A stretch of 64,000 nucleotides of DNA, from contig NZ_FNGV01000012.1 of the NCBI RefSeq assembly GCF_900103215.1, positions 62,001 through 126,000 of the forward strand, written 5' to 3'. The DNA comes from Kriegella aquimaris. GTDB lineage: Bacteria; Bacteroidota; Bacteroidia; Flavobacteriales; Flavobacteriaceae. The translations under genes were made by a program, and so were the position numbers. Positions 1 to 23,622 of this stretch are shown in pieces (within the stretch, counting starts at the first letter, position 1; every line of letters starts with the position of its first letter). Under the pieces are notes generated by a model, which was not told the origin of the DNA, did no database searches, and was given only the letters and a program-made list of their open reading frames with translations.

Positions 1-2
1 GT

Positions 3-560: not shown

Positions 561-646
561 AATACCTTACCATTAACAATCTGGACAAACTTCCCTAGTT
601 TCAGACAAGAAAAGACAAGCCTCGGACATAAATCGGGACAAGTGTT

Positions 647-681
647 TTTTGGTTAATCGCAGTTACTTGCATTAACCAAAA
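647..681. promoter_or_regulatory. Inverted repeat, probable operator of the RHH gene
   Basis: Perfect 11-bp arms, TTTTGGTTAAT (647-657) and ATTAACCAAAA (671-681), are separated by 13 bp. The right arm ends 8 bp before the start codon of the ribbon-helix-helix gene at 690. Symmetric sites just upstream of RHH genes are typical autoregulatory operators; that function is inferred here. Confidence 0.55.
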
Positions 682-689
682 TTCACAAA

Positions 690-2442: not shown

Positions 2443-2471
2443 TTAACATCGTGTATTACAATAATATCAAA

Positions 2472-2510
2472 TCGTACCCTCGTACCCCGAATAAAGGTAC
2501 GAGGGTACGA
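2472..2510. repeat. Perfect 15-bp inverted repeat with GGGTACGAG motif
   Basis: TCGTACCCTCGTACC (2472-2486) and its exact complement (2496-2510) are separated by 9 bp. No T run follows, so it is not a typical terminator. It sits between the small gene ending at 2442 and the primase-like gene at 2530. The GGTACGAGGGTACGAG arm resembles the GGGTATGGATAGGGTATGG iterations that follow the equivalent gene in element 2. One TGTATTACA motif (2452-2460) lies just before it. An origin-type or regulatory role is plausible but inferred. Confidence 0.6.
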
Positions 2511-2529
2511 GGTAAAAATTCAATAAGAA

Positions 2530-5682: not shown

Positions 5683-8445
5683 ATGAACAAGCAACAACTA
5701 GCCGCCAAAATCTGGGAATCTGCAAACCAAATGCGTTCCAAAATTGAGGCAAATGAATACAAAGATTATATACTTGGCTTCATCTTTTATAAATACCTAT
5801 CGGAAAAGCAAATACAGTTCGCTAAAAATCAAGATTTCACCCAAGAGGATATTGAAGCCTTGAGCGAAGAAGATACCGAAACGGTAGATTTCATTAAAAA
5901 AAACATAGGATACTTTATAGCCTATGATGATTTGTTTAGCACTTGGATCAGTGCTGGTAAAGATTTTGATGTATCAAATGTACGAGAAGCTTTATCTGCT
6001 TTTAGCCGACTAATTAGTCCTAAACACAAAAAGCTTTTTGATGGTATTTTCAATACTTTGGAAACAGGTTTAAGTAAATTAGGTGATACCGCAGCCAAGC
6101 AAACCAAAGCCATTGCAGATTTGCTGCATTTAATTAAGAGCATCCCTATGGATGGCAAACAAGACTATGATGTTCTTGGTTTTATCTATGAATACCTAAT
6201 TGAAAAGTTTGCGGCAAACGCAGGTAAAAAAGCAGGAGAGTTTTATACGCCCCATGAGGTATCTGTACTTATATCAGAAATTATTTCAGACCATTTAAAA
6301 GACCGTAAGCAAATTGAAATTTATGATTCATGTAGTGGTTCTGCCTCATTGCTTATTAACATAGGTAACAGCATTGCGAAGTATATGGATGATGAAAACA
6401 ACATTAAATACTATGCACAGGAGCTAAAGCAAAATACCTATAACCTTACCAGAATGAATTTGGTGATGCGTGGTATTTTACCAACGAACATACAGACTAG
6501 AAATGGTGATACCTTAGAAGACGATTGGCCATTCTTTGATGAGAACGACCCAGTACATACTTATAACACCTTGTATTTAGATGCGGTAGTATCTAACCCA
6601 CCGTATTCACAAAAATGGACCCCAACTAATAAGGAAGCTGATCCTCGTTATGCTCGTTTTGGTCTTGCGCCTAAAACCAAGGCAGATTTTGCCTTTCTAT
6701 TACACGACTTGTACCATTTAAAGCCAGATGGCATTATGAATATTGTACTACCACATGGGGTACTTTTTCGTGGTGGTGAAGAAGGTAAAATACGCAAACA
6801 GCTCATTGAAAAAAACCACATTGATGCCATTATTGGTTTGCCATCGGGTATATTTTTTGGTACGGGCATCCCTACTATTATTATTGTTTTAAAACAAAAA
6901 CGTACCAATACCGATACCTTAATTATTGATGCTTCAAAAGGTTTTCTTAAAGATGGCAAAAACAACAAGTTACGTGCTAGTGATATAAGGCGTATTGCAG
7001 ATGCGGTGCGTGATAGAGCTAACATACATAAATTTTCTAGAACGGTTGAGCGTGATGAAATACGTAACAACGAGTACAACCTAAACATACCGCGCTATGT
7101 AGACTCTTCTGAGCCTGCCGAAAAATGGGATATCTATGCCTCTATGTTTGGTGGTATTCCGGTAAATGAGATAGACGAACTACATAAGTATTGGGATGCG
7201 TTCACAGAGTTACGTGAAGCATTATTTGAAAGAACTACAGCCGTAAATGCTAAGTTGAAAGTAACAGCTATAAAAGAAAGCATTGTAAATCACGCTAATG
7301 TTACTGCTTTTGCGAATGCGTATACCCAGGCGTTTAAGGACTTTGACCAGTACCTAAGCCAGCAATTAGTAAGCAATACAGCTGCTGTTAAGGTAAACAA
7401 AGAGAAAACAATATTAAGCAACGAAATTTTTAAACGTCTAGAGACCATACCGCTTATAGACAAATATGAAGCTTACCAACTGTTAGATGATAACTGGGAA
7501 ACTATAAAGGTAGACCTAGAAATTATACAGACCGAAGGCTTTGATGCTGCACGTGTAGTAGACCCTAATATGGTGATGAAAAAGAAAAACGGTAAAGAAA
7601 CTGAAGTACAAGAAGGTTGGAAGGGTCGTATTATGCCATTTACTCTAGTTCAAGAACGGTATTTGTCAAAGGAGCTTGAAGCGCTCACTATAAATGAAAG
7701 CCGACTTACCGCTATTGCCACGGAGATTGACGAAATTATTGAAGCATTACCAGAAGAAGAAAAAGACAGTAGCCTGCTTAATGATAAAAGTGATGCCTTT
7801 GTAGCCAAGGAGTTAAACGAAGTGGTAAAGGAAGCCTATGCAGAAGTAGAAACTCCAGAAATTAATGCGATTAAAGCCTACCAAGAGTTACTAGACAATA
7901 AAGCACGTAAACTAGAAAAAGAAACTTTTATAAAAGCCAACAAAGCAATACAATGGAGCGCTATGGATGCTAATAAAGATGGCACCTATAGTAAAACTAC
8001 AGTAAACAAATACCTGTCTCAATTGCAGAGTGTTTTTACATTTAAAGAAGACACTTTTGAATACCAAGTAGTAAAAGCAAGCCAATTACTTATAGAGCAA
8101 AAGGACCTAAAAGCAAAAATTAAAAAAGAAGCTGCTGCACTCCACATGCTCACTAAAGAAACTATTGAAAATTTAACCGATGCACAGATAAATGACCTGC
8201 TTGAACATAAATGGGTACAACCATTAGTTAAAGCATTAGAAAATATGCCTGATGCCATTATAGATACGCTTTCTCGAAAGTTACAGCAACTAACAGATAA
8301 ATATGCTACTACCTATAGTGATGTAGCCAAAGATATTAAGCAAGCTGAAAACGAACTTGCAGGGCTATTGGGCAACCTTACAGGAAACGAGCACGATTTA
8401 AAAGCACTAAGCGAGTTTAAGTACCTACTAAAAACTAATATTTAA
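5683..8445 (+). CDS. hsdM: Type I restriction-modification methyltransferase subunit, long form
   Basis: 920 aa. N-terminal HsdM helical domain (AKIWESANQMRSKIEANEYK, then FIFYKYLSEKQ), then the N6-adenine methyltransferase domain: AGEFYTPHEV near 185, motif I DSCSGSASLL near 214, and catalytic motif IV NPPY near 304. With HsdS it methylates adenine in the recognition site. The protein is about 400 residues longer than common HsdM (about 500 aa). The extra C-terminal part (from about residue 490) is charged, helical and probably coiled-coil, with no recognised domain. hsdS starts 2 bp after the stop, so the genes form one operon. Confidence 0.92.
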   Translation: MNKQQLAAKIWESANQMRSKIEANEYKDYILGFIFYKYLSEKQIQFAKNQDFTQEDIEALSEEDTETVDFIKKNIGYFIAYDDLFSTWISAGKDFDVSNVREALSAFSRLISPKHKKLFDGIFNTLETGLSKLGDTAAKQTKAIADLLHLIKSIPMDGKQDYDVLGFIYEYLIEKFAANAGKKAGEFYTPHEVSVLISEIISDHLKDRKQIEIYDSCSGSASLLINIGNSIAKYMDDENNIKYYAQELKQNTYNLTRMNLVMRGILPTNIQTRNGDTLEDDWPFFDENDPVHTYNTLYLDAVVSNPPYSQKWTPTNKEADPRYARFGLAPKTKADFAFLLHDLYHLKPDGIMNIVLPHGVLFRGGEEGKIRKQLIEKNHIDAIIGLPSGIFFGTGIPTIIIVLKQKRTNTDTLIIDASKGFLKDGKNNKLRASDIRRIADAVRDRANIHKFSRTVERDEIRNNEYNLNIPRYVDSSEPAEKWDIYASMFGGIPVNEIDELHKYWDAFTELREALFERTTAVNAKLKVTAIKESIVNHANVTAFANAYTQAFKDFDQYLSQQLVSNTAAVKVNKEKTILSNEIFKRLETIPLIDKYEAYQLLDDNWETIKVDLEIIQTEGFDAARVVDPNMVMKKKNGKETEVQEGWKGRIMPFTLVQERYLSKELEALTINESRLTAIATEIDEIIEALPEEEKDSSLLNDKSDAFVAKELNEVVKEAYAEVETPEINAIKAYQELLDNKARKLEKETFIKANKAIQWSAMDANKDGTYSKTTVNKYLSQLQSVFTFKEDTFEYQVVKASQLLIEQKDLKAKIKKEAAALHMLTKETIENLTDAQINDLLEHKWVQPLVKALENMPDAIIDTLSRKLQQLTDKYATTYSDVAKDIKQAENELAGLLGNLTGNEHDLKALSEFKYLLKTNI

Positions 8446-8446
8446 T

Positions 8447-9676
8447 ATGGCAACAGAAAATAAAAGCCCAGAAGTGCGGTTTGAGGGTTTTAATGACAAA
8501 TGGAAAAAAAACTATCTTGAAGATGAAATTGATTTCTATAGTGGATTAACTTATTCACCGCTAGACGTACAAAAAGGTGAAGGAACATTTGTGATACGCT
8601 CATCTAATGTAAAAAACAGTGAACTTGTTAATGCTGATGATGTCTTTGTAAATCCCGAGATTGTAAATTGTCTAAATGTTGAAAAAGGTGATATTGCTGT
8701 AGTAGTAAGAAATGGTTCACGTTCACTAATTGGCAAACATGCTCAAATAAAGGAAATTTTAAAAAATACAGTCATAGGTGCTTTTATGACCGGACTAAGA
8801 CCTAAGAATAATTCTGATTTTATAAATGCTTTACTGGATACTCAAACCTTTCAAAAAGAAATTCAAAAAAATCTAGGAGCAACAATTAATCAAATTACAA
8901 CTGGTCCCTTTAAGAAAATGGAATTCTTCTTTCCTAATATAGAAGAACAGAAAGTTGTTGGTGATTTTTTTAAAAATTTAAATAAATCAATATCTGTATC
9001 TAAGATTAAACTCACAAAACTTAAAAACCTAAAAAAAGCAATGCTAGTTAAGATGTTTCCACAAGAGGGCGCTACAATCCCAGAGATACGTTTTAAAGGC
9101 TTTGATGGGGAGTGGGAAGATTCTACTTTAGACAATGAAGTTCATTTTTTCAGTGGTTTAACATATTCACCTCTTGATGTAGATAGTAAGGCAGATACGC
9201 TGGTTTTGCGCTCCTCAAATGTCAAACGAGATGAAATTATTGATGCCGATAACGTATATGTTGATTCAAGTGTTATTAATTGTACATATGTGGAAGTTGG
9301 AGATATAGTAGTTGTAGTTAGAAATGGTTCAAGAAACTTAATTGGTAAGCATGCACAAGTAAAAAGAGCAATGAATAATACGGTAATAGGTGCATTTATG
9401 ACAGGAATTCGAGCTAAAGTACCATCCTTTTTAAATGCTATGTTAAGTACTCTATTATTTCAAAAGCAAGTCGAAGAAAACCTAGGAGCGACAATAAATC
9501 AAATAACAACAGGAGTATTTAAAAATATGGTTTTCAAGTTTCCTATTGAAAATGAACAAATAAAAATAGGCCAGTATTTTGAAAACCTTGATAACCTAAT
9601 TTTAAATCACAATGAGCAACTGAAAAAACTTAACAGCATTAAAAAAGCCTGCCTTAGTAAAATGTTTGTCGCTTAA
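8447..9676 (+). CDS. hsdS: Type I restriction-modification specificity subunit with duplicated TRDs
   Basis: 409 aa with two target recognition domains, each followed by a helical conserved region. The halves are clearly paralogous: both contain FSGLTYSPLDV-like, RSSNVK, VVVRNGSR, IGKHAQ, NTVIGAFMTG and NLGATINQITTG segments at matching spacing (about residues 8-200 and 210-400). Each TRD reads one half of the bipartite target, so near-identical TRDs predict a palindromic, interrupted recognition sequence. No recombinase or inverted partial hsdS is adjacent. Confidence 0.92.
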   Translation: MATENKSPEVRFEGFNDKWKKNYLEDEIDFYSGLTYSPLDVQKGEGTFVIRSSNVKNSELVNADDVFVNPEIVNCLNVEKGDIAVVVRNGSRSLIGKHAQIKEILKNTVIGAFMTGLRPKNNSDFINALLDTQTFQKEIQKNLGATINQITTGPFKKMEFFFPNIEEQKVVGDFFKNLNKSISVSKIKLTKLKNLKKAMLVKMFPQEGATIPEIRFKGFDGEWEDSTLDNEVHFFSGLTYSPLDVDSKADTLVLRSSNVKRDEIIDADNVYVDSSVINCTYVEVGDIVVVVRNGSRNLIGKHAQVKRAMNNTVIGAFMTGIRAKVPSFLNAMLSTLLFQKQVEENLGATINQITTGVFKNMVFKFPIENEQIKIGQYFENLDNLILNHNEQLKKLNSIKKACLSKMFVA

Positions 9677-9705
9677 AACCAACCCAACTAGTACCGTTTA
9701 TAAAT

Positions 9706-12700
9706 ATGATTTTTAATAAAGAAAGTGATTTTGAAGAAGCCGTTATAGAAGCCTTATCGCATAAAGGTTGGGAAAGTGAGGTCATTAAAAAACCTACAGA
9801 AAAAGACTTACTAGATAACTGGGCAAATATACTTTTTGAGAACAACCGCGATATAGACCGCCTTAATGACCACCCACTTACGGAGGGTGAGATGCAGCAA
9901 ATACTAGAGCAGGTAAACACCTTACGTACACCACTTAAGCTTAATGGTTTTATAAATGGTAAGACGGTAGCCATTACAAGAGATAACGAAAAGGACACTT
10001 TGCATTTTGGTAAAGAAGTAAGTCTTAAAATTTATGACCGCCACGAAATTGCTGCTGGGCAAAGTAGGTATCAAATAGCACAGCAACCACAATACAAAAG
10101 CAAGTCTAACATACTAGGCGACCGTCGTGGAGATTTAATATTGCTTATAAACGGTATGCCGCTTATACACATAGAGCTTAAAAAAAGTAATGTTCCAGTA
10201 AGTCAAGCATACCATCAGATAGAAAAGTACGCACGTGCTGGTGTCTTTACAGGCTTGTTTTCTTTAGTACAAGTTTTTGTAGCCATGGAGCCTAACGAAA
10301 CAAGGTACTTTGCAAACCCTGGTCCAGATGGTATATTCAACAAAGACTATTATTTTCAATGGGCAGACTTTAATAACGAACCCTTAAACTTATGGAGTGA
10401 TGTAGTTACTTATTTACTCTCTATACCTATGGCGCACCAGCTTATAGGGTTTTACACCGTACCAGATACGAGTGATGGCGTTCTTAAAGTAATGCGTAGC
10501 TATCAATACTATGCAGCAAGTGCTATAAGTGATAAAGTAGCAAAAACAGATTGGAAGAGTAGACAAGCACTAGGCGGGTATGTATGGCACACTACAGGCT
10601 CTGGCAAAACAATGACCAGTTTTAAAAGTGCACAGCTAATAGCCAACTCAAAAGATGCGGACAAAGTAATCTTCTTAATGGACAGAATAGAGCTTGGCAC
10701 ACAATCTTTAAAAGAATACCGTGGCTTTAGTGATGACAATGAAGATGTACAAGCAACGGAGAACACTGGCGTTTTAGTGACGAAGTTAAAAAGTGACGAC
10801 CCAGCAAATACTTTGATTGTCACCTCTATTCAAAAAATGAGTCTTATTACCGAGGAGGAAGGAACTAAAGGTGCAGACATAGCCATGATGAACAATAAGC
10901 GTATTGTCTTTATTGTAGATGAGGCACATCGTAGCACCTTTGGCGATATGCTAATTACTATAAAAAAGACCTTTCCTTGGGCTATATTTTTCGGCTTTAC
11001 AGGTACGCCCATACAAGATGAAAACCAAAAGAAACTTAATACCACCGCTACTGTTTTTGGAGACGAGCTACACCGTTATAGCATTGCAGACGGTATACGA
11101 GATGGCAACGTATTAGGGTTTGACCCATACAAGGTTCTTACTTATAAAGATAAAGACCTGCGCAAGGCGGTGGCCTTAGAAAAATCTAAAGCATCTAGTG
11201 TAGAAGATGCCTTGGGCGATACAAAAAAGAAGAAGATATTTCTAAAGTACTTGAACGATGTGCCTATGGCAGGTTCATATAATGATGCAGGCACCTATGA
11301 AACAGGTATAGAAGACCATTTATCCAATGCCCAATACGACCGTGAGCAACACATCTCAAAAGTAGTAGAAGATATTTTGGGCAACTGGCTCATTTTGAGC
11401 CAGAATGGAAAATTCCACGCCATATTTGCTACCAGTAGTATACCCATGGCTGTGCGCTATTACAGAACATTAAAGCGTGTAAAACCCGACTTAAAAATTA
11501 CAACACTCTTTGACCCTACTATTGATAATAACGGCAATTCTGAATATAAAGAAGATGCACTTATAGAAATTATAGAAGACTACAATGCGCAATATGAACA
11601 AGATTTTAAGTTAGCGAACTACGCTAAAATGAAAAAAGATATTGCTTCTAGAATGTCTCATAAAGCACCATACCTAAGAATAGAGAAAGAACCCGAGAAG
11701 CAATTGGACATTTTAATTGTAGTAGACCAAATGCTCACAGGTTTTGACAGCAAGTGGGTAAACACTTTGTATATGGACAAGAAGATGGAGTATGAAAACA
11801 TCATACAAGCATTTTCACGTACCAACCGTCTCTTTAAACGTGATGAAAAACCACACGGCACCATACGTTATTACCGTAAGCCACACACCATGGAGCGCAA
11901 TATAAACGCAGCCATAAAATTATATTCTGGTGATAAAGTAACCGGCTTGTTTGTGGAGCGTTTACCCCACAATTTAAAAGCAATAAATGCCGTGTATGAT
12001 GAGATTGCACAACTATTTGAACTTGCAGGAGTTGCCAATTTTGAAAAGTTACCAGATGACCTAACGGAACGTGGTCGTTTTGCCAAGTTGTTTAATGCCT
12101 TCAATATGTACTTAGAAGCAGCTAAAGTACAACGCTTTGTGTGGGAAAAATTAGAATACACTTTCGGAGAAGGTAGAAAGAAAGAAAATATTACGCTAGC
12201 TTTAGATAAACATACCTATGATATTTTAGTTTTGCGTTATAAAGAGCTTTCAGGCTCGGGTGAAGGAGCAATGGGTTCTGGTGTTCCATACGAGATAGAA
12301 GGATATATCACAGAGATTGATACAGGGAAAATTGATGCTGACTATATGAATTCTCGTTTTGAGAAGTATCTAAAAAAACTACAAGATGAGGCTGTAAGGA
12401 AAGAAGATGTGCAACAAACACTGAATGAACTTCACAAGTCTTTTGCAAGCCTTACCCAAGAGCATCAGAAGTATGCTAATTTATTCCTGCATGATGTACA
12501 GCGTGGTAATGTAAAACTAGAAGCGGGCAGAACACTTAAAGACTACATTACACTATACCAGTACAATGCTAAAAATGACCAAATACGCAAAATAGCTACA
12601 GTGTTGGGTTTAGATGAAGCTCGTCTGCGTAGTATGATGGAATCAGGTCTTAGTGCAAAAAGCATCAACGAGTACGGTAGGTTCTCAGACCTTAAAAATA

Positions 12701-12870
12701 CTGTAGACAAAGAAAAAGCCAAAATCTACTTTGGAGAATTGGAGGGTAAAAAGCTGCCTCAGTTTAAAGTTAATATACGTGTAGACAACTTGTTACAGAA
12801 GTTTATTTTGGAAGGTGGGTTTGAACTACCGAAAAGTCCAAATCTACCAAAAAATAGATATGGAAGTTGA
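9706..12870 (+). CDS. hsdR: Type I restriction-modification restriction/translocase subunit
   Basis: 1054 aa, normal for the family. PD-(D/E)XK nuclease near residues 142-162 (GDLILLINGMPLIHIELKKS: the D, then E-x-K). SF2 translocase domain: Walker A TTGSGKT near 296, DEAH near 404, FTGTP near 428, and a later FSRTNR motif VI-type segment. It translocates DNA and cuts unmodified DNA with the HsdM/HsdS complex. It starts 29 bp after hsdS, completing the operon XRE-hsdM-hsdS-hsdR with all key motifs intact. Confidence 0.94.
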   Translation: MIFNKESDFEEAVIEALSHKGWESEVIKKPTEKDLLDNWANILFENNRDIDRLNDHPLTEGEMQQILEQVNTLRTPLKLNGFINGKTVAITRDNEKDTLHFGKEVSLKIYDRHEIAAGQSRYQIAQQPQYKSKSNILGDRRGDLILLINGMPLIHIELKKSNVPVSQAYHQIEKYARAGVFTGLFSLVQVFVAMEPNETRYFANPGPDGIFNKDYYFQWADFNNEPLNLWSDVVTYLLSIPMAHQLIGFYTVPDTSDGVLKVMRSYQYYAASAISDKVAKTDWKSRQALGGYVWHTTGSGKTMTSFKSAQLIANSKDADKVIFLMDRIELGTQSLKEYRGFSDDNEDVQATENTGVLVTKLKSDDPANTLIVTSIQKMSLITEEEGTKGADIAMMNNKRIVFIVDEAHRSTFGDMLITIKKTFPWAIFFGFTGTPIQDENQKKLNTTATVFGDELHRYSIADGIRDGNVLGFDPYKVLTYKDKDLRKAVALEKSKASSVEDALGDTKKKKIFLKYLNDVPMAGSYNDAGTYETGIEDHLSNAQYDREQHISKVVEDILGNWLILSQNGKFHAIFATSSIPMAVRYYRTLKRVKPDLKITTLFDPTIDNNGNSEYKEDALIEIIEDYNAQYEQDFKLANYAKMKKDIASRMSHKAPYLRIEKEPEKQLDILIVVDQMLTGFDSKWVNTLYMDKKMEYENIIQAFSRTNRLFKRDEKPHGTIRYYRKPHTMERNINAAIKLYSGDKVTGLFVERLPHNLKAINAVYDEIAQLFELAGVANFEKLPDDLTERGRFAKLFNAFNMYLEAAKVQRFVWEKLEYTFGEGRKKENITLALDKHTYDILVLRYKELSGSGEGAMGSGVPYEIEGYITEIDTGKIDADYMNSRFEKYLKKLQDEAVRKEDVQQTLNELHKSFASLTQEHQKYANLFLHDVQRGNVKLEAGRTLKDYITLYQYNAKNDQIRKIATVLGLDEARLRSMMESGLSAKSINEYGRFSDLKNTVDKEKAKIYFGELEGKKLPQFKVNIRVDNLLQKFILEGGFELPKSPNLPKNRYGS

Positions 12871-12910
12871 GGATACTAATAACAAAAAAATTGCATTTTG
12901 CAATGCCCGA

Positions 12911-12943
12911 AAACGGGTAAGGCTACAAAACGGGTAAGGCTAC
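12911..12943 (+). repeat. Two tandem copies of a 17-bp repeat
   Basis: AAACGGGTAAGGCTAC occurs at 12911-12926 and 12928-12943, a 17-bp period. Related repeats with the same period occur at 15967-16028, and an inverted form near 17360-17394. The gap between hsdR and the lipoprotein gene (12871-13357) otherwise holds only the IS21-like end at 13010-13072. A short hairpin near 12890 has its T run on the minus strand. Confidence 0.7.
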
Positions 12944-13009
12944 AATTAGCCATCGTCATTTTATCAAAAAAACACCGTTGGCTTTTTACAAATAGAATCG
13001 ACTTTTTCA

Positions 13010-13357: not shown

Positions 13358-15295
13358 ATGAATACAAATAAAATATGGTTCGTATTAATAGCAACAATTT
13401 TCCTTATTTCATGTGATTTGTCTAAAGAAAAGAATGATTACAAAAGTATTGTAGAGAAAACAAAAATCAATTCTGCATTCGAAATGCAACCTCCAATTGC
13501 TAAGGAAATAAAAATAGAAATTCTGGAAAGCCCAACTTCGGAAAATGAAAATATTAGATTGGTAGCAACTTTCGAAAAAAACGAAATCCAATCAAGCTAT
13601 CTAGCATTATTAATTGATAATCAAAAAGTGGTTTTAAGAGATGATGGTAAAGGAGCAGATAATAATGCTCATGATGGTAATTTCTCAATTTTAATTAAAG
13701 AAAATATCAAAAAACTTCAATCCGAATTATTGAATCGACAGAAACAGATTATTAAAAATGATAGCTTGGTTACATTTGATAGAAGAAGAATGAAATTTCA
13801 CCCAATAGAAGATATTAAGAAATTTCAATTTGGAATATTTACAAAAAACGAAGAAATTTCAATTCCGATCGGATTACTACCCTTGAACCGTCCCCCACGT
13901 ACATTGTCGCAGCGAAAACAATACCTATTAATAGTAGATACAAAGGTCGTAGAAGATCCTACTCGAACTTTTAATCCATGTGCAACGTCGGGTAATCAAG
14001 GAAATCCAAACGGAGTATGGACTTTCGGAGAGTTAATGAGGCAGTTGGCATCTCCTTCTCCAAATTTAATTGCTAATGATGCTCAAGTGTCCGCTTTTGT
14101 TAGAGATTGGCTTTCTACTTGGACATCACAACAAACTATTAATGGTGAAACTGTTGCCGCAAGAAATATATCTAACGTGCTCAGCGAATGGGAAGATAGA
14201 AGCGGATTACCGCCTTCTGGAGTAGGAGTATTAGATATGAAATTCGCACCAATGAAGCTAACCGCGATAGTAAATAGGTTAGATTTGAGAGGGAACTCAG
14301 GATATGGGTTTTCTAATGCAGGTGAAGGAAGATTCGTATTCACGGTTCTAGATAACTGTCACTTCCTTGGAAAAGAATTCAATATTATTTTAGAATATGG
14401 AATTAATAAAACCAATTGTACGGATCTTGTTGCATATGCTCAAGAGTGGGAAAATTTGAATAACTTAACAATAGGAACACCGGCATATAATGCGGCATTA
14501 GAGAATATTACAAATCAGTTCACTCAATGTGGCACAAACACCAGCAAACCCAATGAAAGCTCTTTAAATCAACTTAGAACAAATGAAATTGCGCTTAACT
14601 CACCTTGGGAACTACGCGAGTTTGTTCTTACGAATACAGGATTGTCACCTACAACTGTAAAACAGGAACCAGCAGTAAAATATAATAATAAATTTCCAAT
14701 AAATGCCGATGTTCAAAGGCTTGAAAGGTATATTAACTCATTCGCATTCTTGATAAAAAGAAATAAGCATACAGTTCCTGAAAAATTTGAAGGAGAAGAT
14801 TTTTTAGGTGGGAAAGCCCATACAGAATTTCCACCTGTCGGCAATCACCCATCTTACTATGGAACAAGAGATTCCAGAACTCAAATTAACGACCACGAAG
14901 CTTTAAGGAGTTTTTCTGAAAACACATGCTCAGGATGTCATGCCGGTTCAACTCAAACCGCTTTTACACATGTTGACCCTGCAGGCTACGGCCAAGAAGC
15001 AGCTTTATCTGGGTTCTTAACTGGAATTGCGGGCTCGAGAGGATTCCCGATAGGCGGTATTGGCGGGGATTTTCCAACTGATGACGATGGAAATATTTCA
15101 AATAACATTATGACTGTTCTAGACCCATTTCACAATATTTTTACATATACATCGCATGCAGATATGGTTACAGAGTATAATGATTTGTTAAGAAGAGAAA
15201 TGGATTTAAACAATCTACTGAACAATAACTGTACTATAGGAGTAATTGAATTAGCTGCAAAATTGACTTTTGATCCGTTAAGAATGACTCATTAA
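13358..15295 (+). CDS. Lipoprotein with CxxCH motif, cargo gene of unknown function
   Basis: 645 aa. Signal peptide with lipobox LISC (Cys19), so the product is likely an outer-membrane or periplasmic lipoprotein. Near residues 88-102 DDGKGADNNAHDGNFS resembles the Ca-binding-like turn of choice-of-anchor X type domains. Near residue 525 a CSGCH motif could bind heme c or metal. The middle is not recognised. The gene stands alone and is bracketed by inverted IS21-like ends (13010-13072 and 15446-15483), suggesting it was moved as cargo. An extracellular redox or binding function is possible but unsupported. Confidence 0.75.
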   Translation: MNTNKIWFVLIATIFLISCDLSKEKNDYKSIVEKTKINSAFEMQPPIAKEIKIEILESPTSENENIRLVATFEKNEIQSSYLALLIDNQKVVLRDDGKGADNNAHDGNFSILIKENIKKLQSELLNRQKQIIKNDSLVTFDRRRMKFHPIEDIKKFQFGIFTKNEEISIPIGLLPLNRPPRTLSQRKQYLLIVDTKVVEDPTRTFNPCATSGNQGNPNGVWTFGELMRQLASPSPNLIANDAQVSAFVRDWLSTWTSQQTINGETVAARNISNVLSEWEDRSGLPPSGVGVLDMKFAPMKLTAIVNRLDLRGNSGYGFSNAGEGRFVFTVLDNCHFLGKEFNIILEYGINKTNCTDLVAYAQEWENLNNLTIGTPAYNAALENITNQFTQCGTNTSKPNESSLNQLRTNEIALNSPWELREFVLTNTGLSPTTVKQEPAVKYNNKFPINADVQRLERYINSFAFLIKRNKHTVPEKFEGEDFLGGKAHTEFPPVGNHPSYYGTRDSRTQINDHEALRSFSENTCSGCHAGSTQTAFTHVDPAGYGQEAALSGFLTGIAGSRGFPIGGIGGDFPTDDDGNISNNIMTVLDPFHNIFTYTSHADMVTEYNDLLRREMDLNNLLNNNCTIGVIELAAKLTFDPLRMTH

Positions 15296-15445
15296 ATGGA
15301 CCGCATTAATCCTATATCACCTGAATTCCTTTAAATCTATAACAAAAAAGTATTCGACTACAACAATTTACTATTTAGATAACTTTCCATTTAAGTTGAA
15401 ATCAACTTAAATAAACGTACCAAGGTACGCATAGTGGATGAGCCG

Positions 15446-15483
15446 GTCAAAGTGAACCACGTGCGCCGGATGAAAGTGAGCAT
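15446..15483 (-). repeat. Inverted IS21-like end
   Basis: GTCAAAGTGAACCAC (15446-15460) followed by GTGCG is the complement of the sequence at 13029-13048 with its flank, differing at one base over 24. A degenerate second copy (15469-15483) follows at about 23-24 bp. Together with 13010-13072 it brackets the lipoprotein gene as an inverted pair about 2.4 kb apart. Confidence 0.55.
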
Positions 15484-15536
15484 AGCAATATTTATTGCAA
15501 ACCCTTTTACAACATAACCTTAAACTATTTTTTATA

Positions 15537-15575
15537 GTGGTTCAAAAAAATCCGTTTTAAGTGGTTCACTTTGAC
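15537..15575 (+). repeat. Second IS21-like end, direct orientation
   Basis: GTGGTTCAAAAAAAT (15537) and GTGGTTCACTTTGAC (15561) are again 24 bp apart, in the orientation of the copy at 13010. This suggests the edge of another, deleted IS. Apart from the two repeat ends, the 423-bp gap 15296-15718 shows no convincing gene. Confidence 0.5.
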
Positions 15576-15718
15576 CGTTTTTTGCACCCATTCATCCAAT
15601 GGTAGGTTGTATCTATCCACTTTCATAATCCTACAAGAAACCAAAGGATATTGACAAACTAAGAAAGTACAGAATCGCGTGTTCTCTAAATATAAACCAG
15701 TTATATTCACAGGACTAT

Positions 15719-15967
15719 TTGCTTTCAATATTCAAATCTCCAGCATACTTATCCACTAAAGATCGGGGGATGCTCACAGGTCCTTTTGATTTCTCTTTTT
15801 TCGATCCTGATTTTCGCCTAATAGTCAACAGGCACAGAAAAGTATTAAGACAGAAATTCAAAGATATCTACGCCGTTTTATCTCGACTACCCCAAGGAGT
15901 AAGGTCGAACATTTGTAGCCAGATTAGAAACAGTAATGACATTGAAGCAATTTGTCAAGTGTTTTAG
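15719..15967 (+). CDS. Hypothetical protein, 82 aa, low support
   Basis: Basic small protein (VNRHRKVLRQKFKDIYAVLS) without recognised domain. It lies in a repeat-rich, IS-scarred region and its stop codon abuts the 17-bp repeat array. It could be a fragment of a decayed gene rather than a functional one. Confidence 0.25.
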   Translation: MLSIFKSPAYLSTKDRGMLTGPFDFSFFDPDFRLIVNRHRKVLRQKFKDIYAVLSRLPQGVRSNICSQIRNSNDIEAICQVF

Positions 15968-16028
15968 GGAAGCCTACAAAAAGGGGAAGCCTACAAAAAG
16001 GGGAAGCCAACAAAACGGGAAGGCTACA
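15967..16028 (+). repeat. Four tandem 17-bp repeats (GGGAAGCCTACAAAAAG)
   Basis: Copies begin at 15967, 15984, 16001 and 16018, the last two with small changes (GGGAAGCCAAC, GGGAAGGCTAC). Same period and related sequence as 12911-12943; inverted relatives occur at 17360-17394. The copies here and there bracket the gene 16223-17296 as an inverted pair. The repeat type is not recognised. Confidence 0.75.
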
Positions 16029-16222
16029 CCCGTTAGTCAGAAATAACGAAATCCACTTCAAGTAAGAAAATTAACACACACATTTTAAAAACATAAGGTT
16101 CCATTTCTTACATTTATATTATTGCTTCAGAGTTCAATTTCTTAACAAATCTGAATTATAATTGCAGCAATTATGGGAAAGCCTCCGCAATCCAATTAGA
16201 ATTAATTAAAAAGCCTAATAAT

Positions 16223-17296
16223 ATGAAAAAGTATATTTTAAGTGGATTTATGATTTTTGGAGTATTACTTTCTAATGCCCAACAAATACTAGACGAGAGA
16301 CCTGATTCAATCAGACGTGCCGAATTGAACGATTTTATTGGAAAAATAGTAGGTACAAATACAGAAACTCCCATAACCAGTTTCGTCTTTGACATAACAC
16401 AAAGCCCTGAATTAAAGTTTAACATACCTTTAAACAATGGAGTCTTTAATCAATTTTATATTGACGGAAAAATAGGGTCTTCTAATGATTATACACCCTT
16501 AGTTAAAAAAGGTGAATGGTTACCTGACTTAGGAATAAATTTTAATTTCACGAAGTTTTTAACTACAACTACTAAATTTTATACATCAGATATTAATAGT
16601 CTATTCGGAGGAAATGTTGAAAATGGAACTATAAATGAAGCTTCTCAATTATTTTGGTCGTGGGTAAATTTTAAAGCAGGTTATAATTATTCAACATTGG
16701 AAACTTATAATAGAGATTTAACACTTTTAAATAAAGATAAGTTTTCAGAACAAAACCTAAATAGTTTAATTTTGAAATCAGACGTTAACTTTTTCTTCTA
16801 CCCTTCTAAGAACATCACAAATTGGCTTTCTTTTAACGGTAAATTAGGCTTTGAATTCAAAACAAATGACAACAATTATTCTTCATTAAAATCAGTTAAC
16901 ATCCGTGAAATTGAATCGATAACTGATGCAAACGGTAATATCATAGAAGTTTCATCAGACGAAAAAAAGATTAAACAAGGAGAGATAATAACAAAGAACA
17001 CATCCAACATTAATTACAATTTAATGGCATTGATATCCCCTTCTAAAGACTTTTATGTTGGATTAAGTACATATGGAAAACAAACACTTACTAAAGAATT
17101 AAAATCGACTGACATTGGTTTCGGAATAACAATTCCAATTACTAAGAAAAAGGGAACAGATAAAACACTTGCCAGTTTCACTTTAAAATATGAAATTCCT
17201 GATATTAAGAATAAGCTAAGTCCACTTACTTTAAAAGAAAAAGGAGCACTTGGATTTTCAATAGGTTTGCCAATCAACATCTTTGGAAAAATCTAA
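16223..17296 (+). CDS. Secreted, outer-membrane beta-barrel-like protein
   Basis: 357 aa. N-terminal signal peptide MKKYILSGFMIFGVLLSNAQ with cleavage after NAQ. The rest alternates aromatic and polar residues in short strands (WLPDLGINFNFTKF, FWSWVNFKAGYNYS, LGFEFKTNDNNYSS, ALGFSIGLPINIFGKI), a pattern of outer-membrane beta-barrels, with a hydrophobic final strand. No family is recognised. It stands alone between 17-bp repeat arrays of opposite orientation. Strand count and topology cannot be fixed by eye. Confidence 0.65.
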   Translation: MKKYILSGFMIFGVLLSNAQQILDERPDSIRRAELNDFIGKIVGTNTETPITSFVFDITQSPELKFNIPLNNGVFNQFYIDGKIGSSNDYTPLVKKGEWLPDLGINFNFTKFLTTTTKFYTSDINSLFGGNVENGTINEASQLFWSWVNFKAGYNYSTLETYNRDLTLLNKDKFSEQNLNSLILKSDVNFFFYPSKNITNWLSFNGKLGFEFKTNDNNYSSLKSVNIREIESITDANGNIIEVSSDEKKIKQGEIITKNTSNINYNLMALISPSKDFYVGLSTYGKQTLTKELKSTDIGFGITIPITKKKGTDKTLASFTLKYEIPDIKNKLSPLTLKEKGALGFSIGLPINIFGKI

Positions 17297-18124: not shown

Positions 18125-18169
18125 CTCATAACCCGAAGGTCGCTGGTTCGAGTCCAGTCCCCGCTACTA
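18125..18169 (+). other. att site: 3' part of a CAT-anticodon tRNA
   Basis: The 45 bp run from the anticodon loop (CTCATAA) through the variable loop and T arm (GCTGG-TTCGAGT-CCAGT) to the acceptor strand CCCCGCT and discriminator A. The 5' half of the tRNA is absent, so this is a recombination scar and not a functional tRNA gene. An identical copy lies at 60838-60882. The parent gene would be tRNA-Met or the CAT-type tRNA-Ile. Confidence 0.88.
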
Positions 18170-18220: not shown

Positions 18221-18250
18221 ATGCCCGCTATTTCCGTACTTTTACAGAAC

Positions 18251-18269
18251 GTACACGAAAACGTACACG
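18251..18269 (+). other. Putative integrase arm sites, left end of element 2
   Basis: GTACACG at 18251-18257 and 18263-18269, a direct pair with 12-bp period, 126 bp from the start of the att core and just before the integrase ATG. The same pair lies at 60768-60786 near the other end. Binding here could also repress the integrase gene. Confidence 0.65.
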
Positions 18270-18277
18270 TTTTTTCA

Positions 18278-19681
18278 ATGAAATTGAACTATTCCGAACC
18301 CAAAATCTATACCGGTGGAGTCGATGTCGACAACTGGTCGAAGCTATCGAAAAAGGAACGGACCGAGGCACTGCAAAAGGATTGGTACGTCTATTTTTCC
18401 TTTAGGGATTCCGAAACGGGAAAACTTAAACGACTTCCTAATATCAAGGCAGGTGCCAATCGGTACAAGACCAAGACCAAACGATTACAGTTCCTGAAGA
18501 CCCTACAGCGCAACCTGCTCCTATTGCTCGAGTACGGGTTCGACCCTTATAAGGACAACTCGGAACTGGAGGCCAAATTTTTTGGTAAAACAGTTAAACA
18601 AGAGGAAACAAAAATTCAGGATCCAGAAACCGTTATTACCCAAGAACCGGAACCACGACCAGTCGTAAAAGAAAAGCCCTCTCCCCTGCCCCAGGCCGCA
18701 CCCTCTGAAACGGGTGTCGGGACACCCCAAACACCCGTGCAGGGCGAAGAAGCTGAACAGGAGGAAAAAGTTTCGGTCAAGGAAGCTTTCGAGATCGGGC
18801 TACGTATCAAAAAAAGCATCCTTAACGAGAATTCCTATCCGAAATACAAGAGCCATATCCTAAAGTTCCAACGTTGGCTGGAAGAAAATATGGATGACAC
18901 CTCCGATATCACCAAGATCGATAAAAAGACCGTTATCCAATACCTGAACGCCATTCTCGAAAAAACAAGTCCGCGCAACCGCAATAATGCCCGTGGCGCG
19001 TTGAGCTCGTTCTTTACCACCTTGGAGGACAACGAACAGATTACGGAAAACTTTATCCTGAAAATAAACGTGCTGAAATCCGTTCCAGAACGGAACAAAA
19101 CGTATAGACCCAAACAGGTCGAGGAAATCGATCTGTATTTGAAGAAGAACGACCCGGTGCTCCGCCTGTTCATACAGTTCATTTCCTATAATTTTTTACG
19201 GCCCATCGAGGTATGTCGACTAAAAGTAGGCGACCTCGATATAGAAGACGGTAAATTATATGTACGCGCCAAGAACAAAGCGGTCAAAATAAAGATCATC
19301 CCCGAGATCCTATTGGACGAACTGCCCGACCTGTCGAAAATGGACCGGGAACATTCCCTCTTCACCCCTGAAAGAATCGGGGGCGTTTGGGACACCGCCG
19401 AAATGAACAAGCGTACCTATTTTACAAGTCGGTTCAAAGAGGTCAAAGAGCACTTTGGACTTGGGAAGGATTACGGGCTCTATAGTTTCAGGCATACTTA
19501 TATCACCAAGCTCTATCGTGAAATGGAAAAGACCATGACTCCCCTAGAGGTAAAGAGCAATTTGATGCTCATCACTGGCCATACGACACAGACGGCACTC
19601 GAAAAATATTTAAGGGACATCGATGCGGTGCTGCCCCAGGATTATTCCGCACTTTTTAGATCGAGGGAAGTCGACAACTAA
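18278..19681 (+). CDS. int: Tyrosine recombinase, integrase of element 2
   Basis: 467 aa from the ATG at 18278 (MKLNYSEPKIYTGG). Longer starts would run translation through the terminator and tRNA scar. N-terminal arm-binding-type region (residues 1-90), a charged proline-rich linker (about 105-160), a SAM-like core-binding domain (SVKEAFEIGLRIKK, then YKSHILKFQRWLEEN), and a catalytic domain with Arg in LRPIEVCRL near 307, SFRHTYITK near 404, TGH near 427 and the nucleophile Tyr in ALEKYL near 443. It should insert and excise the element at the tRNA 3' end. The broken integrase at 60934 is a relative. Confidence 0.92.
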   Translation: MKLNYSEPKIYTGGVDVDNWSKLSKKERTEALQKDWYVYFSFRDSETGKLKRLPNIKAGANRYKTKTKRLQFLKTLQRNLLLLLEYGFDPYKDNSELEAKFFGKTVKQEETKIQDPETVITQEPEPRPVVKEKPSPLPQAAPSETGVGTPQTPVQGEEAEQEEKVSVKEAFEIGLRIKKSILNENSYPKYKSHILKFQRWLEENMDDTSDITKIDKKTVIQYLNAILEKTSPRNRNNARGALSSFFTTLEDNEQITENFILKINVLKSVPERNKTYRPKQVEEIDLYLKKNDPVLRLFIQFISYNFLRPIEVCRLKVGDLDIEDGKLYVRAKNKAVKIKIIPEILLDELPDLSKMDREHSLFTPERIGGVWDTAEMNKRTYFTSRFKEVKEHFGLGKDYGLYSFRHTYITKLYREMEKTMTPLEVKSNLMLITGHTTQTALEKYLRDIDAVLPQDYSALFRSREVDN

Positions 19682-19702
19682 ACAACTATATTTAAAACTC
19701 GT

Positions 19703-20497
19703 ATGGATTATTTCGGACTTTTGGCAAAAACGGACCTCCTTTCACTTTCGCAGGAAGAACGTATCGCTTTTTATGTAGCCAAGGGGCTCTACCATTCGAC
19801 AGATGTGATATCCATACCGTTGGACGGCACCCCCATCGCCATCACCAAAGCCAACAGCAGAAAGGTAACTGAGCCCCGTAAAGAACTTATGGATGCATTC
19901 TATAACTTCATTGTCTCGAACTATGCGGATCTGATCACCAATATGTTCATCGATTTCTTCTATAATTATAACAGGCAAACGACCCTTTTGGAACCAATGG
20001 AGGTCAAAAAGGTCGCCCGCGGCCATTACCTGTATATTGCGGAAAAAATACTTCAGGACCGTATCGATATGATCCGGATGCACAAAGGCCCGAACGGACG
20101 CCAACGGGTAAGCAATACTGAAAAGATGGAGCTCTTGGAAATACGACGTGACGTACTGCCCCAAAATTTGATCGTGAATTTCCCCGAAGGGCTGGCCCGT
20201 TTCCTTATGGGCGACAACCGCTTTTTCGCCAATGCCCTTCTTTTGGCGGTTCCGATACTGGACGAGATCGTTACTTTCGAGGCGTATCTAAAGGTCTTGC
20301 TCAACCTCAACGACGAATTCGGGTTCGAAAGGAACCGGGATATCGATACCGAGGCTACCAAAACACCCGAAGCGGATCCTGTTAAAAAGGAAACGGTGAA
20401 TCCCAAACAAAAATCCGACAAGAAAAAAAGACCGGTATTGACCGATGCCGAAGCCATTCGATATCTAATCGACAACGTCTTTAAAAGAGCAACTTAA
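19703..20497 (+). CDS. Unknown element protein with IRYLIDN tail
   Basis: 264 aa, no known domain, 21 bp after the integrase and probably cotranscribed. The middle (ARFLMGDNRFF, then VPILDEIVTFEAYLKVLLNL) is homologous to the partial protein at the left edge of the window. The lysine-rich linker and final AEAIRYLIDNVF resemble the 59-aa protein at 2263-2442. The iteron-like array begins 3 bp after the stop codon. Conservation of int followed by this gene in two elements suggests a function in element maintenance, excision or copy control, but this is inference. Confidence 0.75.
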   Translation: MDYFGLLAKTDLLSLSQEERIAFYVAKGLYHSTDVISIPLDGTPIAITKANSRKVTEPRKELMDAFYNFIVSNYADLITNMFIDFFYNYNRQTTLLEPMEVKKVARGHYLYIAEKILQDRIDMIRMHKGPNGRQRVSNTEKMELLEIRRDVLPQNLIVNFPEGLARFLMGDNRFFANALLLAVPILDEIVTFEAYLKVLLNLNDEFGFERNRDIDTEATKTPEADPVKKETVNPKQKSDKKKRPVLTDAEAIRYLIDNVFKRAT

Positions 20498-20500
20498 AAT

Positions 20501-21470
20501 CTGTAAATAATTCAGATAGGGTATGCGAAAAACCGATAGGGTATAGCATAGGGTATGGATAGGGTATGGATAGGCTATAAAATAGGGTACGGATAGGGTA
20601 TGATAATTTTATATTACTCAAAATCAATACTATACATGATTTACAAATAGGGTATGATCATACCCTATTCACATAATTAGGGTGCACTAGGGTGTCGTAG
20701 CACCCGAATCAGGTTTTGAGGTTGAGTTGTCAAAAACGTTTTTATAAAACATCGAAGGATATCTGTAAATAATTCAGTTAGGGTATGCGAAAAACCGATA
20801 GGTTAACCATAGGGTACGGATAGGGTATGGAATAGGGTGCACTAGGGTGCCGTAACACCCGAATCCTGTCTTGATGTTGACTTGTCAAAACCGGTGTTAT
20901 AAAACAATGCAGGATATCTGTAAATAATTCAGATAGGGTATGTGAAAAAACGATCGGGTATTTGATAGGGTATGGAAAGGGTACGGCATAGGGTACGGCA
21001 TAGGGTACGGATAGGGTATAATAATTTTATATTGCTGATTATCAACGCTATACATGATTTAAAAATAGGGTATGGTCATACCCTATTGATGTAATTAGGG
21101 TGCAACAGGGTGTCGTAACACCCGAATCCTGTCTTGATGTTGACTTGTCAAAACCGGTGTTATAAAACAACGCAGGATATCTGTAAATAATTCAGATAGG
21201 GTATGCGAAAAAACGATAGGGTATCCATAGGGTATGGCATAGGGTACGGATAGGGTATAGAATAGGGTATGATAATTTTATGTTACTGATTACCAATACC
21301 ATATATAGTTAACAAATAGGGTATGATCATACCTTATTCGTATAATTAGGGTGCACTAGGATGTCGTAACACCCGAATCCTGCCTTGATGTTGACTTATC
21401 AAAACCGTTTTATAAAACACCGAAGGATATCTGCAAATAATTAAGATAGGGTATGGATAGGGTAAAATTA
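20501..21470 (+). repeat. Iteron-like long repeat array
   Basis: Five repeats begin with CTGTAAATAATTCAG or a close variant at 20501, 20763, 20918, 21181 and 21431 (spacing 262, 155, 263, 250 bp). Each has a variable run of ATAGGGTA(T/C)GG units. Three contain a 24-bp palindrome around AATAGGGTATGA (20646-20669 perfect; 21064-21087 and 21315-21338 nearly so). Each complete unit also contains a GGGTGT-CGTA-ACACCC type hairpin. There are no long reading frames. Dense short iterations, palindromes and hairpins next to a maintenance-type gene suggest a replication origin, a partition site or a transfer origin. Confidence 0.85.
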
Positions 21471-22140
21471 TTTTGTACATATTAATATCAACCATTTACA
21501 AAGTAAAAGCTTTGTGCAAAGTATTAACCTAACCGAAAACAAGTTACTTCAATATCTGATATAGTCGCAAATGAAGATTGATAAGAACAGAAATCCATAT
21601 ACAGTTCTGAAGAAAAATTTCCAATACCCTATCTGTGCCGTTTTAATTTAGGAGAAACAGCAAACATGAATCGAGAATCTTTGTATTGTTTGCCATAGAA
21701 TAAAAAATCCCATAAATTTTTAGGATTACACAAATCCGTATTGTACTCACATTGCTTTTTTAGTAATTTGTTAAAATACCCCGTGACATTTTATTGGAAA
21801 TCGATATATTTAGAGGTTCAAGCTACTAACCAGTAACAACAAGTGAACAAATCATCGTAAAACAAACTGGCATCTTTTATTTGGCCCATTGTAGACGATT
21901 GCCGAAAAGACCTTTACATATATGCAAAAAGATTGAGGTCTTTAAATTCGTTCATTTATCGAAGCTTAGATTGGCATTTGGAGGCCACTCAAGAAGTTGC
22001 ACTTTAAGGGAACGAAGCAAATGAATTTTAAATAAAACAAATAACATTGGAAACCGATGAATCGAATTAAGTAAATACTTATTGAAATTGCCAAAGTTTT
22101 AAGGTTTGTTCACAAGCACCAATTACACCAACATAGAATA
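21471..22140. other. Non-coding gap before the defence locus
   Basis: 670 bp of AT-rich sequence with no convincing gene. It includes two short inverted repeats (ACAAAG/CTTTGT near 21500; GCAAAC/GTTTGC near 21660-21693) of doubtful meaning. The promoter of hsdM at 22141 presumably lies in its last part, but no clear Bacteroidota -33/-7 pair can be fixed by eye. Confidence 0.5.
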
Positions 22141-23622
22141 ATGACCAAAGATAAAATCACTCTCTCCCAATTAGAACAATATTTATCAAAAGCCGCATGG
22201 ATATTAAAAGGACCTGTAGACGCTTCAGATTTTAAGGTATACATTTTTCCATTATTGTTCTTTAAGCGGCTATCTGATGTTTATGATGAAGAATACCGCA
22301 TTGCTCTTGAAGAATCTGATGGAGATACAGAGTACGCTAATTTACCGGAATTCCATCGTTTTGTAATTCCTGAAGGGTGCCATTGGAAAGATGTTCGGGA
22401 AACTACCACCAACGTCGGACTTGCCATTGAAAAGGCATTACGAGGCATTGAGCAAGCCAATCAGGAGTTTCTATATGGCATTTTTGGCGATGCGCAATGG
22501 AGTAACAAAAACAAACTTTCTGATCGTTTGTTGATAGACCTTATTGAGCATTTCTCTCAATACGACTTATGGAATAGCAATGTGGATTCCGATTTACTGG
22601 GTACCTCTTATGAATACCTGATAAAGCACTTTGCCGATCTTACCAACAAAAAAGCAGGTGAATTTTATACACCGCGATCGGTGGTCCATTTACTAGGTTT
22701 GATCCTAGACCCACATGAGGGCGAAACCATTTATGACCCTGCATGTGGAACGGGCGGGATGCTTTTGGAATGTGTAGACCATCTTAAACATAACAACGAA
22801 GACTACCGAACATTAAAACTTTTTGGGCAGGAAAAAAACCTCACTTCAAGTTCCATTGCCCGAATGAACATGTTCTTGCATGGAATTGAGGATTTTCAAA
22901 TAGTTCGTGGCGACACCCTTCGTAACCCTGCCTTTTTCGAAGTAGATGGTTTAAAAACGTTTGATTGTGTCATTGCAAATCCGCCGTTTTCATTGAAGGA
23001 ATGGGGAGCAGAAAATTGGGCCAATGATCCTTACGGAAGAAACATCGCCGGCGTACCCCCCAAAGGGAATGGAGATATGGCCTGGGTACAGCACATGATC
23101 AAGTCTATGAACAGTACCGGTCGTATGACCGTGGTGTTGCCTCATGGAGCTCTGTTTAGAAAAGGAGCAGAAGGCAAAATTAGAAAAGCATTATTGGAGC
23201 AAGATATGTTGGAGGCGGTTATTGGCCTAGGACCAAATATTTTTTATGGCACCCAATTGGCGGCCTGTGTAATGGTTTTCAAACAGGCTAAAGAAACAGA
23301 GAAGAAAGGCAAAGTTATTTTTATTGATGCTTCCGAACAAGTGCGTGTAGGACGTGCACAAAATTTTTTGGAGCCGGAGCATGTAACCCAAATTTTTGAA
23401 TGGTTCAAAACATATAAAGATGTTGAGAATTATGTAAAAGTAGCTACCAAAGAAGACTTACTCCAAAATGATTACAATCTAAATATCCCACTATATGTAG
23501 AAAAAATTATAGAGGACAATTTGCCGTCTGTAGATGAAGCTTTAGCTGATTTAAAAAAGGCCTGGAACAGAAGTTTAGTAGCAGAAGAAAAGTTCAAAAC
23601 AATATTAAACGAATTTTTATAA
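22141..23622 (+). CDS. hsdM: Type I methyltransferase subunit, first of two HsdM
   Basis: 493 aa, normal length. Helical N-terminus (QLEQYLSKAAWILKGPVDAS), KKAGEFYTPRSVVHLLG near 178, motif I DPACGTGG near 198, and catalytic NPPF near 279. It is a clear paralogue of the HsdM at 26293 but distinct along its whole length (NPPF against NPPY; FYTPRSVVHLL against FYTNRTVVKLM). No hsdS follows directly. A DUF262/DUF1524 gene starts 3 bp after the stop. It may share the single HsdS at 27759 with the second HsdM, or serve as a modification partner of the DUF262 protein. Confidence 0.9.
   Translation: MTKDKITLSQLEQYLSKAAWILKGPVDASDFKVYIFPLLFFKRLSDVYDEEYRIALEESDGDTEYANLPEFHRFVIPEGCHWKDVRETTTNVGLAIEKALRGIEQANQEFLYGIFGDAQWSNKNKLSDRLLIDLIEHFSQYDLWNSNVDSDLLGTSYEYLIKHFADLTNKKAGEFYTPRSVVHLLGLILDPHEGETIYDPACGTGGMLLECVDHLKHNNEDYRTLKLFGQEKNLTSSSIARMNMFLHGIEDFQIVRGDTLRNPAFFEVDGLKTFDCVIANPPFSLKEWGAENWANDPYGRNIAGVPPKGNGDMAWVQHMIKSMNSTGRMTVVLPHGALFRKGAEGKIRKALLEQDMLEAVIGLGPNIFYGTQLAACVMVFKQAKETEKKGKVIFIDASEQVRVGRAQNFLEPEHVTQIFEWFKTYKDVENYVKVATKEDLLQNDYNLNIPLYVEKIIEDNLPSVDEALADLKKAWNRSLVAEEKFKTILNEFL

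Follow-up and report, generated by a model that had tools for sequence, protein, structure and literature searches.

The 970-bp repeat array that follows an integrase-linked gene in Kriegella aquimaris is, on our tentative reading, an array of protein-binding sites specific to its own element, one of a family of Flavobacteriaceae islands that integrate at tRNA-Met genes; the role that appears most likely is that of replication origin (oriV) or copy-control locus of the excised island. Taken by itself, the sequence is compatible with an origin, a partition site or an operator, all of them possible. The array recurs in related islands with a fixed geometry and a variable sequence, which is more interesting than a single array. 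Narrow queries of a collection of open-access full texts returned no description of the island or array family, a weak sign that it has yet to be published. The window mentioned below is the whole stretch of 64,000 nucleotides that was analyzed. The features that define the island in it are the following:

18125-18169, + strand: left att copy, a 45-bp 3′ fragment of tRNA-Met, exactly repeated with two copies in the window
18221-19681, + strand: tyrosine recombinase (int; PF00589, E 1e-7; PHROG integrase, E 8e-29), with the start placed by alignment with relatives
18250-18269, + strand: a pair of CGTACACG sequences at a distance of 12 bp within the 5′ end of int, candidate arm-type sites for the integrase
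19703-20497, + strand: 264-aa protein whose family has no name; its C-terminal tail is a homologue of the separate small protein (about 65 aa) of related elements
60838-60882, + strand: right att copy, 45 bp, the right boundary of the island

Since the exact 45-bp 3′ end of tRNA-Met occurs at both ends, it bounds an island of 42.7 kb, which thus has what marks an integrated mobile element: an integrase gene, direct att repeats at both ends and a tRNA gene as the site. The arm-type role of CGTACACG, of which a further copy lies at 60779-60786, is suggested by location, the number of matches in the window being near chance (7 versus 4.1 expected; 10 of 100 shuffles reach 7). An intact tRNA-Met is found further left, at 14146-14219 of locus L034, adjoining a second integrase of the same family, so the left part of the window belongs to a sister element inserted in tandem at that tRNA-Met gene. 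The latter (window 1-3405; L034 14146-17209) contains int, a 312-aa gene, and genes for a ribbon-helix-helix (RHH) protein, a DnaB-like ATPase, the small protein and a DUF6371 protein, beyond which lie type I restriction genes of its own (window 5683-12870), and carries only a small repeat cluster. To the right of the island, the att copy is followed immediately by mere fragments of a third integrase of this family (60884-61200), the remains of a decayed element. The defence cargo of the island comprises two HsdM, HsdS, a GmrSD-like protein, Septu PtuA/PtuB, AbiEii, HsdR and McrBC. This defence-rich island also holds metabolic cargo at 44520-60616 (three NamZ, a SIS domain, a sodium symporter and SusCD-type genes). 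Elsewhere in the window, two short 17-bp tandem repeats were seen at 12910-12945 and 15967-16028. The island ORFs of at least 120 aa included none recognisable as a replicative helicase, primase or loader.

The array itself starts 3 bp past the end of the 264-aa gene (20497), as originally predicted, and is composed as follows:

20501-21470, + strand: repeat array, 970 bp, directly after the 264-aa gene
20501-20762, + strand: unit 1, 262 bp, with palindrome at 20646-20669 and hairpin at 20690-20705
20763-20917, + strand: unit 2, 155 bp, shortened, without the 24-bp palindrome, with hairpin at 20845-20860
20918-21180, + strand: unit 3, 263 bp, with palindrome at 21064-21087 and hairpin at 21108-21123
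21181-21430, + strand: unit 4, 250 bp, with palindrome at 21315-21338 and hairpin at 21359-21374
21431-21470, + strand: stub of a fifth unit, about 40 bp
21497-21516, + strand: hairpin TACAAAGT-AAAA-GCTTTGTG, just 3′ of the array

The original prediction had counted five units of about 260 bp, one of them shortened to 155 bp, each with a constant start, a 24-bp palindrome and a small hairpin. The array is real and so is the 155-bp unit, but there are only four real units, the fifth being the stub. Their pairwise identity is 85-90% along the whole aligned length, and the TRF period is 251 bp. The constant start, CTG[T/C]AAATAATT[C/A]AG, does occur in five copies. Every unit opens with CTGTAAATAATTCAG, continued by direct sites of the type ATAGGGTAYGG, many of them 11-12 bp apart. 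The hairpin (GG[G/A]TG...CACCC), together with a TTGAC-type palindrome, is present in four of the four units, while the 24-bp palindrome, which consists of two opposed sites and comes after an AT-rich stretch, is present in three and is missing from the shortened one.

The regularity is beyond chance, as had been claimed. With up to 2 mismatches, ATAGGGTAYGG occurs 61 times in the window versus 22.5 expected, a number reached by 0 of 100 shuffles, and 29 of the 61 sites fall inside the 970 bp of the array. The commonest 8-mer has 27 copies in the 1643 bp 3′ of the 264-aa gene (the shuffled maximum averages 3.6), and GGGT is present 34 times in the forward and 6 times in the reverse direction. 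As single-stranded DNA, unit 3 folds better than 199 of 200 shuffles (z -2.9). The claims that the array is non-coding and fits neither an IS nor a CRISPR pattern were also borne out: no ORF of at least 60 aa is listed inside it; a CRISPR is ruled out by the lack of unique spacers, the units being 85-90% identical throughout; an IS or a general repeat is ruled out because the array DNA occurs once in its own genome. An RNA gene was likewise discarded, since Rfam gave nothing above the gathering score in the window.

Concerning the occurrence of the array elsewhere, a distinction has to be made between its sequence and its architecture. In a comparison of 60 genomes (its own included) that scored at most 7 candidate places per genome, the array DNA gave a single other match of 43 bp (84% identical, E 2e-4); hence the exact unit, proposed for a search in related islands, was not found in the 59 other genomes, but the architecture did recur: many related islands have short direct repeats just behind int or behind the neighbouring homologue of the 264-aa gene. 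The refuting condition named in the original prediction, absence of the array from every other copy of the island family, therefore does not hold for the architecture. The integrase was found in 45 of 299 genomes of the bacterial family (E ≤ 1e-60), and ARAGORN detected tRNA-Met in 12 of the 16 loci fetched. The 88 loci compared are the best 80 of 299 contig stretches confirmed with the integrase, plus the window and seven whole-genome loci; they include near copies (L022/L024, L037/L039, L041/L043 and L053/L056, and in Psychroflexus L058/L065/L066/L071/L072). A second sample of 40 integrase loci, mostly from a more distant subfamily, was reduced to 30 by dropping 10 duplicates, with two near-copy pairs remaining.

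The gene for the 264-aa protein or its 312-aa counterpart (264/312 gene) was found in 42 of the 88 loci (E < 1e-10). At least three identical 6-mers on the same strand occur in the first 150 bp after it in 27 of 41 loci (the reverse-strand L094 was left out of this count), versus 19 of 149 control gene ends (Fisher, 6e-11); taken singly against their own shuffles, 7 of the 41 loci reach p < 0.05. The repeated word varies by element (ATAGGG, AGGGTA, ACCATA, TTACCC, ATTCAC, AGACAT, TGACAT, GTCGCT and others), while the spacing follows the DNA helix: among 70 spacings of up to 30 bp in 27 of the 42 loci, counted with hand-picked words and with 22 of the 70 supplied by the window and L041 alone, 40 are of 10-12 bp and 26 of 20-24 bp. 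A word-free self-match test of the regions between int and the small gene was positive at lag 10 in 12 of 12, lag 20 in 10 of 12, lag 30 in 10 of 12 and lag 40 in 9 of 12, versus 11-20% of 276 controls overall (12% at lag 10, 20% at lag 20); the 12 at lag 10 are not independent cases because several are near copies. In the 264/312-gene regions, with L024 and L094 left out, a self-match at lag 10 or 11 was obtained in 19 of 40 versus 66 of 276 controls. Phased chains of at least four sites near the expected place were seen in 15 of the 88 loci (class a, 3 of 23; class b, 7 of 19; without the gene, 5 of 46; the classes are defined below), with 16 elsewhere in 1.61 Mb, some of the latter being the same kind of array further away. 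Several class-a loci, such as L037, L093 and L114, have no clear repeats. Only 6 of the 30 loci of the second sample have phased chains, two of these six away from the expected place; the phased array is thus chiefly a feature of the nearer integrase subfamily. In one distant relative (L211, 1310-1900 in int orientation), two blocks of TCGAACTGTACA-type repeats follow the zinc-finger gene.

The helical phasing seen in iteron origins is thus present in the family, without being strict in every member. The island of Pareuzebyella sediminis (L045) has an independent array of units of about 285 bp at the same position, with copies whose spacing is not strictly helical, and it can be said that large array expansions arose more than once. 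In that island (as L027), the ORF at 15058-16539 in int orientation encodes an HsdM with a start very like that of the HsdM after the present array. Zobellia russellii has 8 perfect 11-bp copies at a contig end. A hairpin CACCTAGCTAA-ATCTTA-TTAGCTAGGTG, with variants, was found by pattern search after the repeats of the class-b loci L048, L061, L063, L070 and L074, and one of the same type in L193. Between int and the small gene of L052 there is a perfect, telomere-like run of 40 AACCT (11919-12118).

The 264-aa gene starts 21 bp after int and has matches in 12 of the 299 genomes, its own included. Its product matched nothing in Pfam, PHROG, PADLOC or NCBIfam. By tblastn the gene had no match (E ≤ 1e-5) in 72,556 plasmid and 50,697 phage records, by which a phage or plasmid origin was ruled out. 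Two classes were distinguished. Class a (23 loci, this island included) has proteins of about 235-331 aa, counted from the longest start codon, typically with a lysine-rich linker and a tail like LTDAEAIRYLIDNVF; L026 and L105 were counted here on account of the tail, and L106 by length alone, despite its RHH gene and separate small protein. Class b (19 loci) has proteins of about 307-355 aa with a longer helical C-terminus in place of the class-a tail, and its small protein is encoded between the helicase-like and DUF6371 genes. The tail matches the HMM of the small protein in 14 of the 23 class-a loci, that of the 264-aa protein with E 2e-7. A viral scan with the small protein found no relative, and that with int gave 19 loci. 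The predicted folds had pLDDT values of 85.7 (264-aa protein, AF2) and 89.2 (class b). With a limit of E ≤ 0.001, Foldseek matched neither class in PDB, nor class a in BFVD. The class-b model did not reach a Z of 5 in VIA-align, a result that carries no weight either way. As the family spans acidic to basic proteins (pI 4.9-9.6, with 6.9 for the 264-aa protein), charge gives no argument for DNA binding. An identity as RteC (PF09357) was considered and appears doubtful. It was not among the Pfam matches with E ≤ 1 for 33 family members; whole-length hhalign gave E 0.076 with the alignment led by class b and 0.53 with a second one; the class-b C-terminal part alone gave E 0.0035 (score 20.9; shuffled maximum 14.2 of 40), a weak similarity of a part that is absent in class a.

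One argument for an origin comes from the replication genes beside the repeats in class b and in L088; none was recognised in this island. Class-b islands have an RHH gene in 14 of 19 loci (NikA-like, DUF6290, located after the repeats), an AAA_25/DnaB-like ATPase in 15 of 19, the small protein, and a DUF6371 protein with a zinc ribbon. The DnaB-like helicase ORF lies downstream of the repeats. For the ATPase, matches were obtained with a DnaB-like helicase PHROG (E 2e-15) and, weakly, with T7 helicase chains (E 0.003). In L088, DnaD/O-like and DnaC-like genes come after the repeats. None of the 23 class-a loci showed the class-b ATPase or DUF6371 within the sequence available, which extends for less than 4 kb downstream in L041 and L106. 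DnaA-box-like sites, defined with the E. coli consensus, were not enriched (14 of 86 loci versus 16.7% expected). So, the proposal of an iteron-like array of an excised element is plausible and has partial support: it is favoured by the two att copies, the helical phasing, the architecture of related islands and the replication genes of the relatives, while the DnaA-box result and the island's lack of a recognised replicative helicase or primase speak against its origin part.

As to the protein that would bind the repeats, a comparison of 39 loci (Mantel tests without L024, L094, L106 and loci with less than 200 bp after the gene) showed that the repeats are more alike where the 264/312 proteins are more nearly identical (rho 0.20, p 0.001; partial 0.21), with no such relation for int identity (-0.02). 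The correlation was weaker in a 6-mer version (rho 0.10, p 0.02), was not significant within class a (p 0.18) or class b (p 0.14) alone, and was not significant in a control shifted 1200 bp (motif versus protein, p 0.08); physical linkage of gene and array would yield the same result. Many elements, L088 among them, lack the 264/312 gene; typically, such elements have int and the small protein, often along with a zinc-finger protein. Because phased repeats are present in such elements too, the 264/312 protein is not the sole candidate binder, and another protein must bind there.

The strongest rival, in our view rather unlikely, is an operator or promoter region, in which the phased sites would bind a regulator of the element, switch the downstream operon and couple it to excision. 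In class-b and minimal elements the repeats do lie directly before RHH/helicase or small-protein genes, and operator-like sites are indeed in use in this family. In 15 of the 30 second-sample loci, and in 13 of the 88, the zinc-finger gene is closely preceded by a conserved palindrome, CGTMAA...ACGT...ACG (for instance in L057, 351-374 bp after int); the zinc-finger start itself was recognised in 14 and 12 of them, respectively. However, the palindrome proved to be a separate site, which weakens the operator reading: it coexists with phased repeats in L057, L058, L065, L066, L071 and L110. Since these six loci carry it in addition to their phased repeats, which lie between int and the small gene, the palindrome was also ruled out as a replacement of the array. 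Furthermore, 29 sites over 970 bp in units of about 260 bp far exceed the usual operator, the first gene 3′ of the array is 670 bp away and belongs to the cargo, and promoter-like sites are at chance level (12 versus 9.8 expected in 19400-22400).

A partition (centromere-like) site, at which RHH or similar adaptors would bind direct repeats of about 11 bp, seems improbable. Centromeres of the ParR/parC type use clustered direct repeats of about 11 bp, and the present repeats of 10-12 bp are similarly clustered, with an RHH gene after them in the 14 class-b loci mentioned. The difference is that no ParM-, ParA- or TubZ-type motor was recognised among the Pfam-scanned ORFs of the island and the few genes of relatives scanned, that the RHH gene is lacking from the available DNA of 22 of the 23 class-a loci (L106 has one), and that repeats occur without it. 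A set of recombination accessory sites, that is, arm-type or excisionase sites for the integrase, is considered quite improbable. Phased direct sites do suit the cooperative binding of an excisionase or of an integrase arm, and int is present in all loci, as follows from their selection, but 2.3 kb separate the array from the att core, the att ends have a different pair of sites nearby (CGNAYACG type), and the similarity of the repeats does not track int identity. Finally, a selfish or neutral satellite expansion of a once-small site, with no present function here, would agree with the expansion in few loci, the small cluster of the neighbouring island and the lack of recognised replication enzymes in this one, but it is very improbable, as the sites keep core and spacing across diverged units and the array of Pareuzebyella expanded independently at the same position.

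Returning to a binding array for replication or copy control, several known systems offer partial parallels. Plasmid iterons are usually about two helical turns long and bound by winged-helix Rep proteins. Those of P1, RK2 and R6K are described as mostly direct repeats, replicon-specific in sequence and helix-phased (PMC5043065), and the present array resembles them in its direct repeats, element-specific sequence and helix phase. The difference lies in the adjacent protein, which matches no Rep by family or fold search. In replication of the RSF1010 type, RepC iterons act with the RepA helicase and the RepB′ primase. Class-b relatives similarly pair repeats with a DnaB/T7-like helicase and the zinc-ribbon DUF6371 protein, but neither enzyme was found in class a, this island included, and a primase role of DUF6371 and homology to RepC are only putative. 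SGI1 (Salmonella genomic island 1) is likewise an integrated island, and its direct repeats of the iteron type come right behind a replication gene: its account places an iteron oriV just after rep, with the repeats in the xis-S003 intergenic region, and has this origin used after excision (PMC7433901). Yet the iterons of SGI1 are reported to be 17 bp long and four in number, and to be accompanied by a putative DnaA box and a recognisable Rep (PMC7433901), whereas here there are phased sites of about 11 bp in units of about 260 bp, no DnaA-box enrichment, and a protein without matched fold or family name. In SCC, a helicase is described that binds an iteron-bearing site near its own gene (PMC7581432).

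It seems reasonable to propose the following mechanism. The adjacent gene would supply a protein (264 aa in this island, about 310-330 aa in others) that occupies the repeats cooperatively, along a single face of the helix; in this island the repeat cluster has been duplicated into four units of up to about 260 bp. On the excised circle, the nucleoprotein complex would open the neighbouring AT-rich DNA or recruit a helicase; class-b elements would use their own, and here it may come from the host or the sister island. The extra units may titrate the initiator, lower its free level and so limit copy number, like plasmid or SGI1 iterons. The C-terminal tail of the 264-aa protein would contact the replication machinery, a task that in elements with their own helicase would fall to a separate small protein. 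A further proposal, which we regard as doubtful, is that these islands use a rapidly re-coded address system, with a helical geometry that is fixed and a sequence that is re-invented in almost every element and read by a fast-evolving protein without a matched fold, so that sister islands stacked at the same tRNA-Met are kept independent as to replication or maintenance; this would make the 264-aa protein an initiator of a new type, with a helicase-contact tail fused to it.

Bacterial defence genes travel on islands, and little is known of how these are maintained. Should the array prove to be an origin, the tRNA-Met islands of this family would be replicating elements, and the adjacent protein would be an initiator or regulator without a matched fold. 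In that case, the combination of fixed geometry and variable sequence would constitute a natural experiment on DNA-binding specificity and on the divergence of incompatibility at one insertion site.
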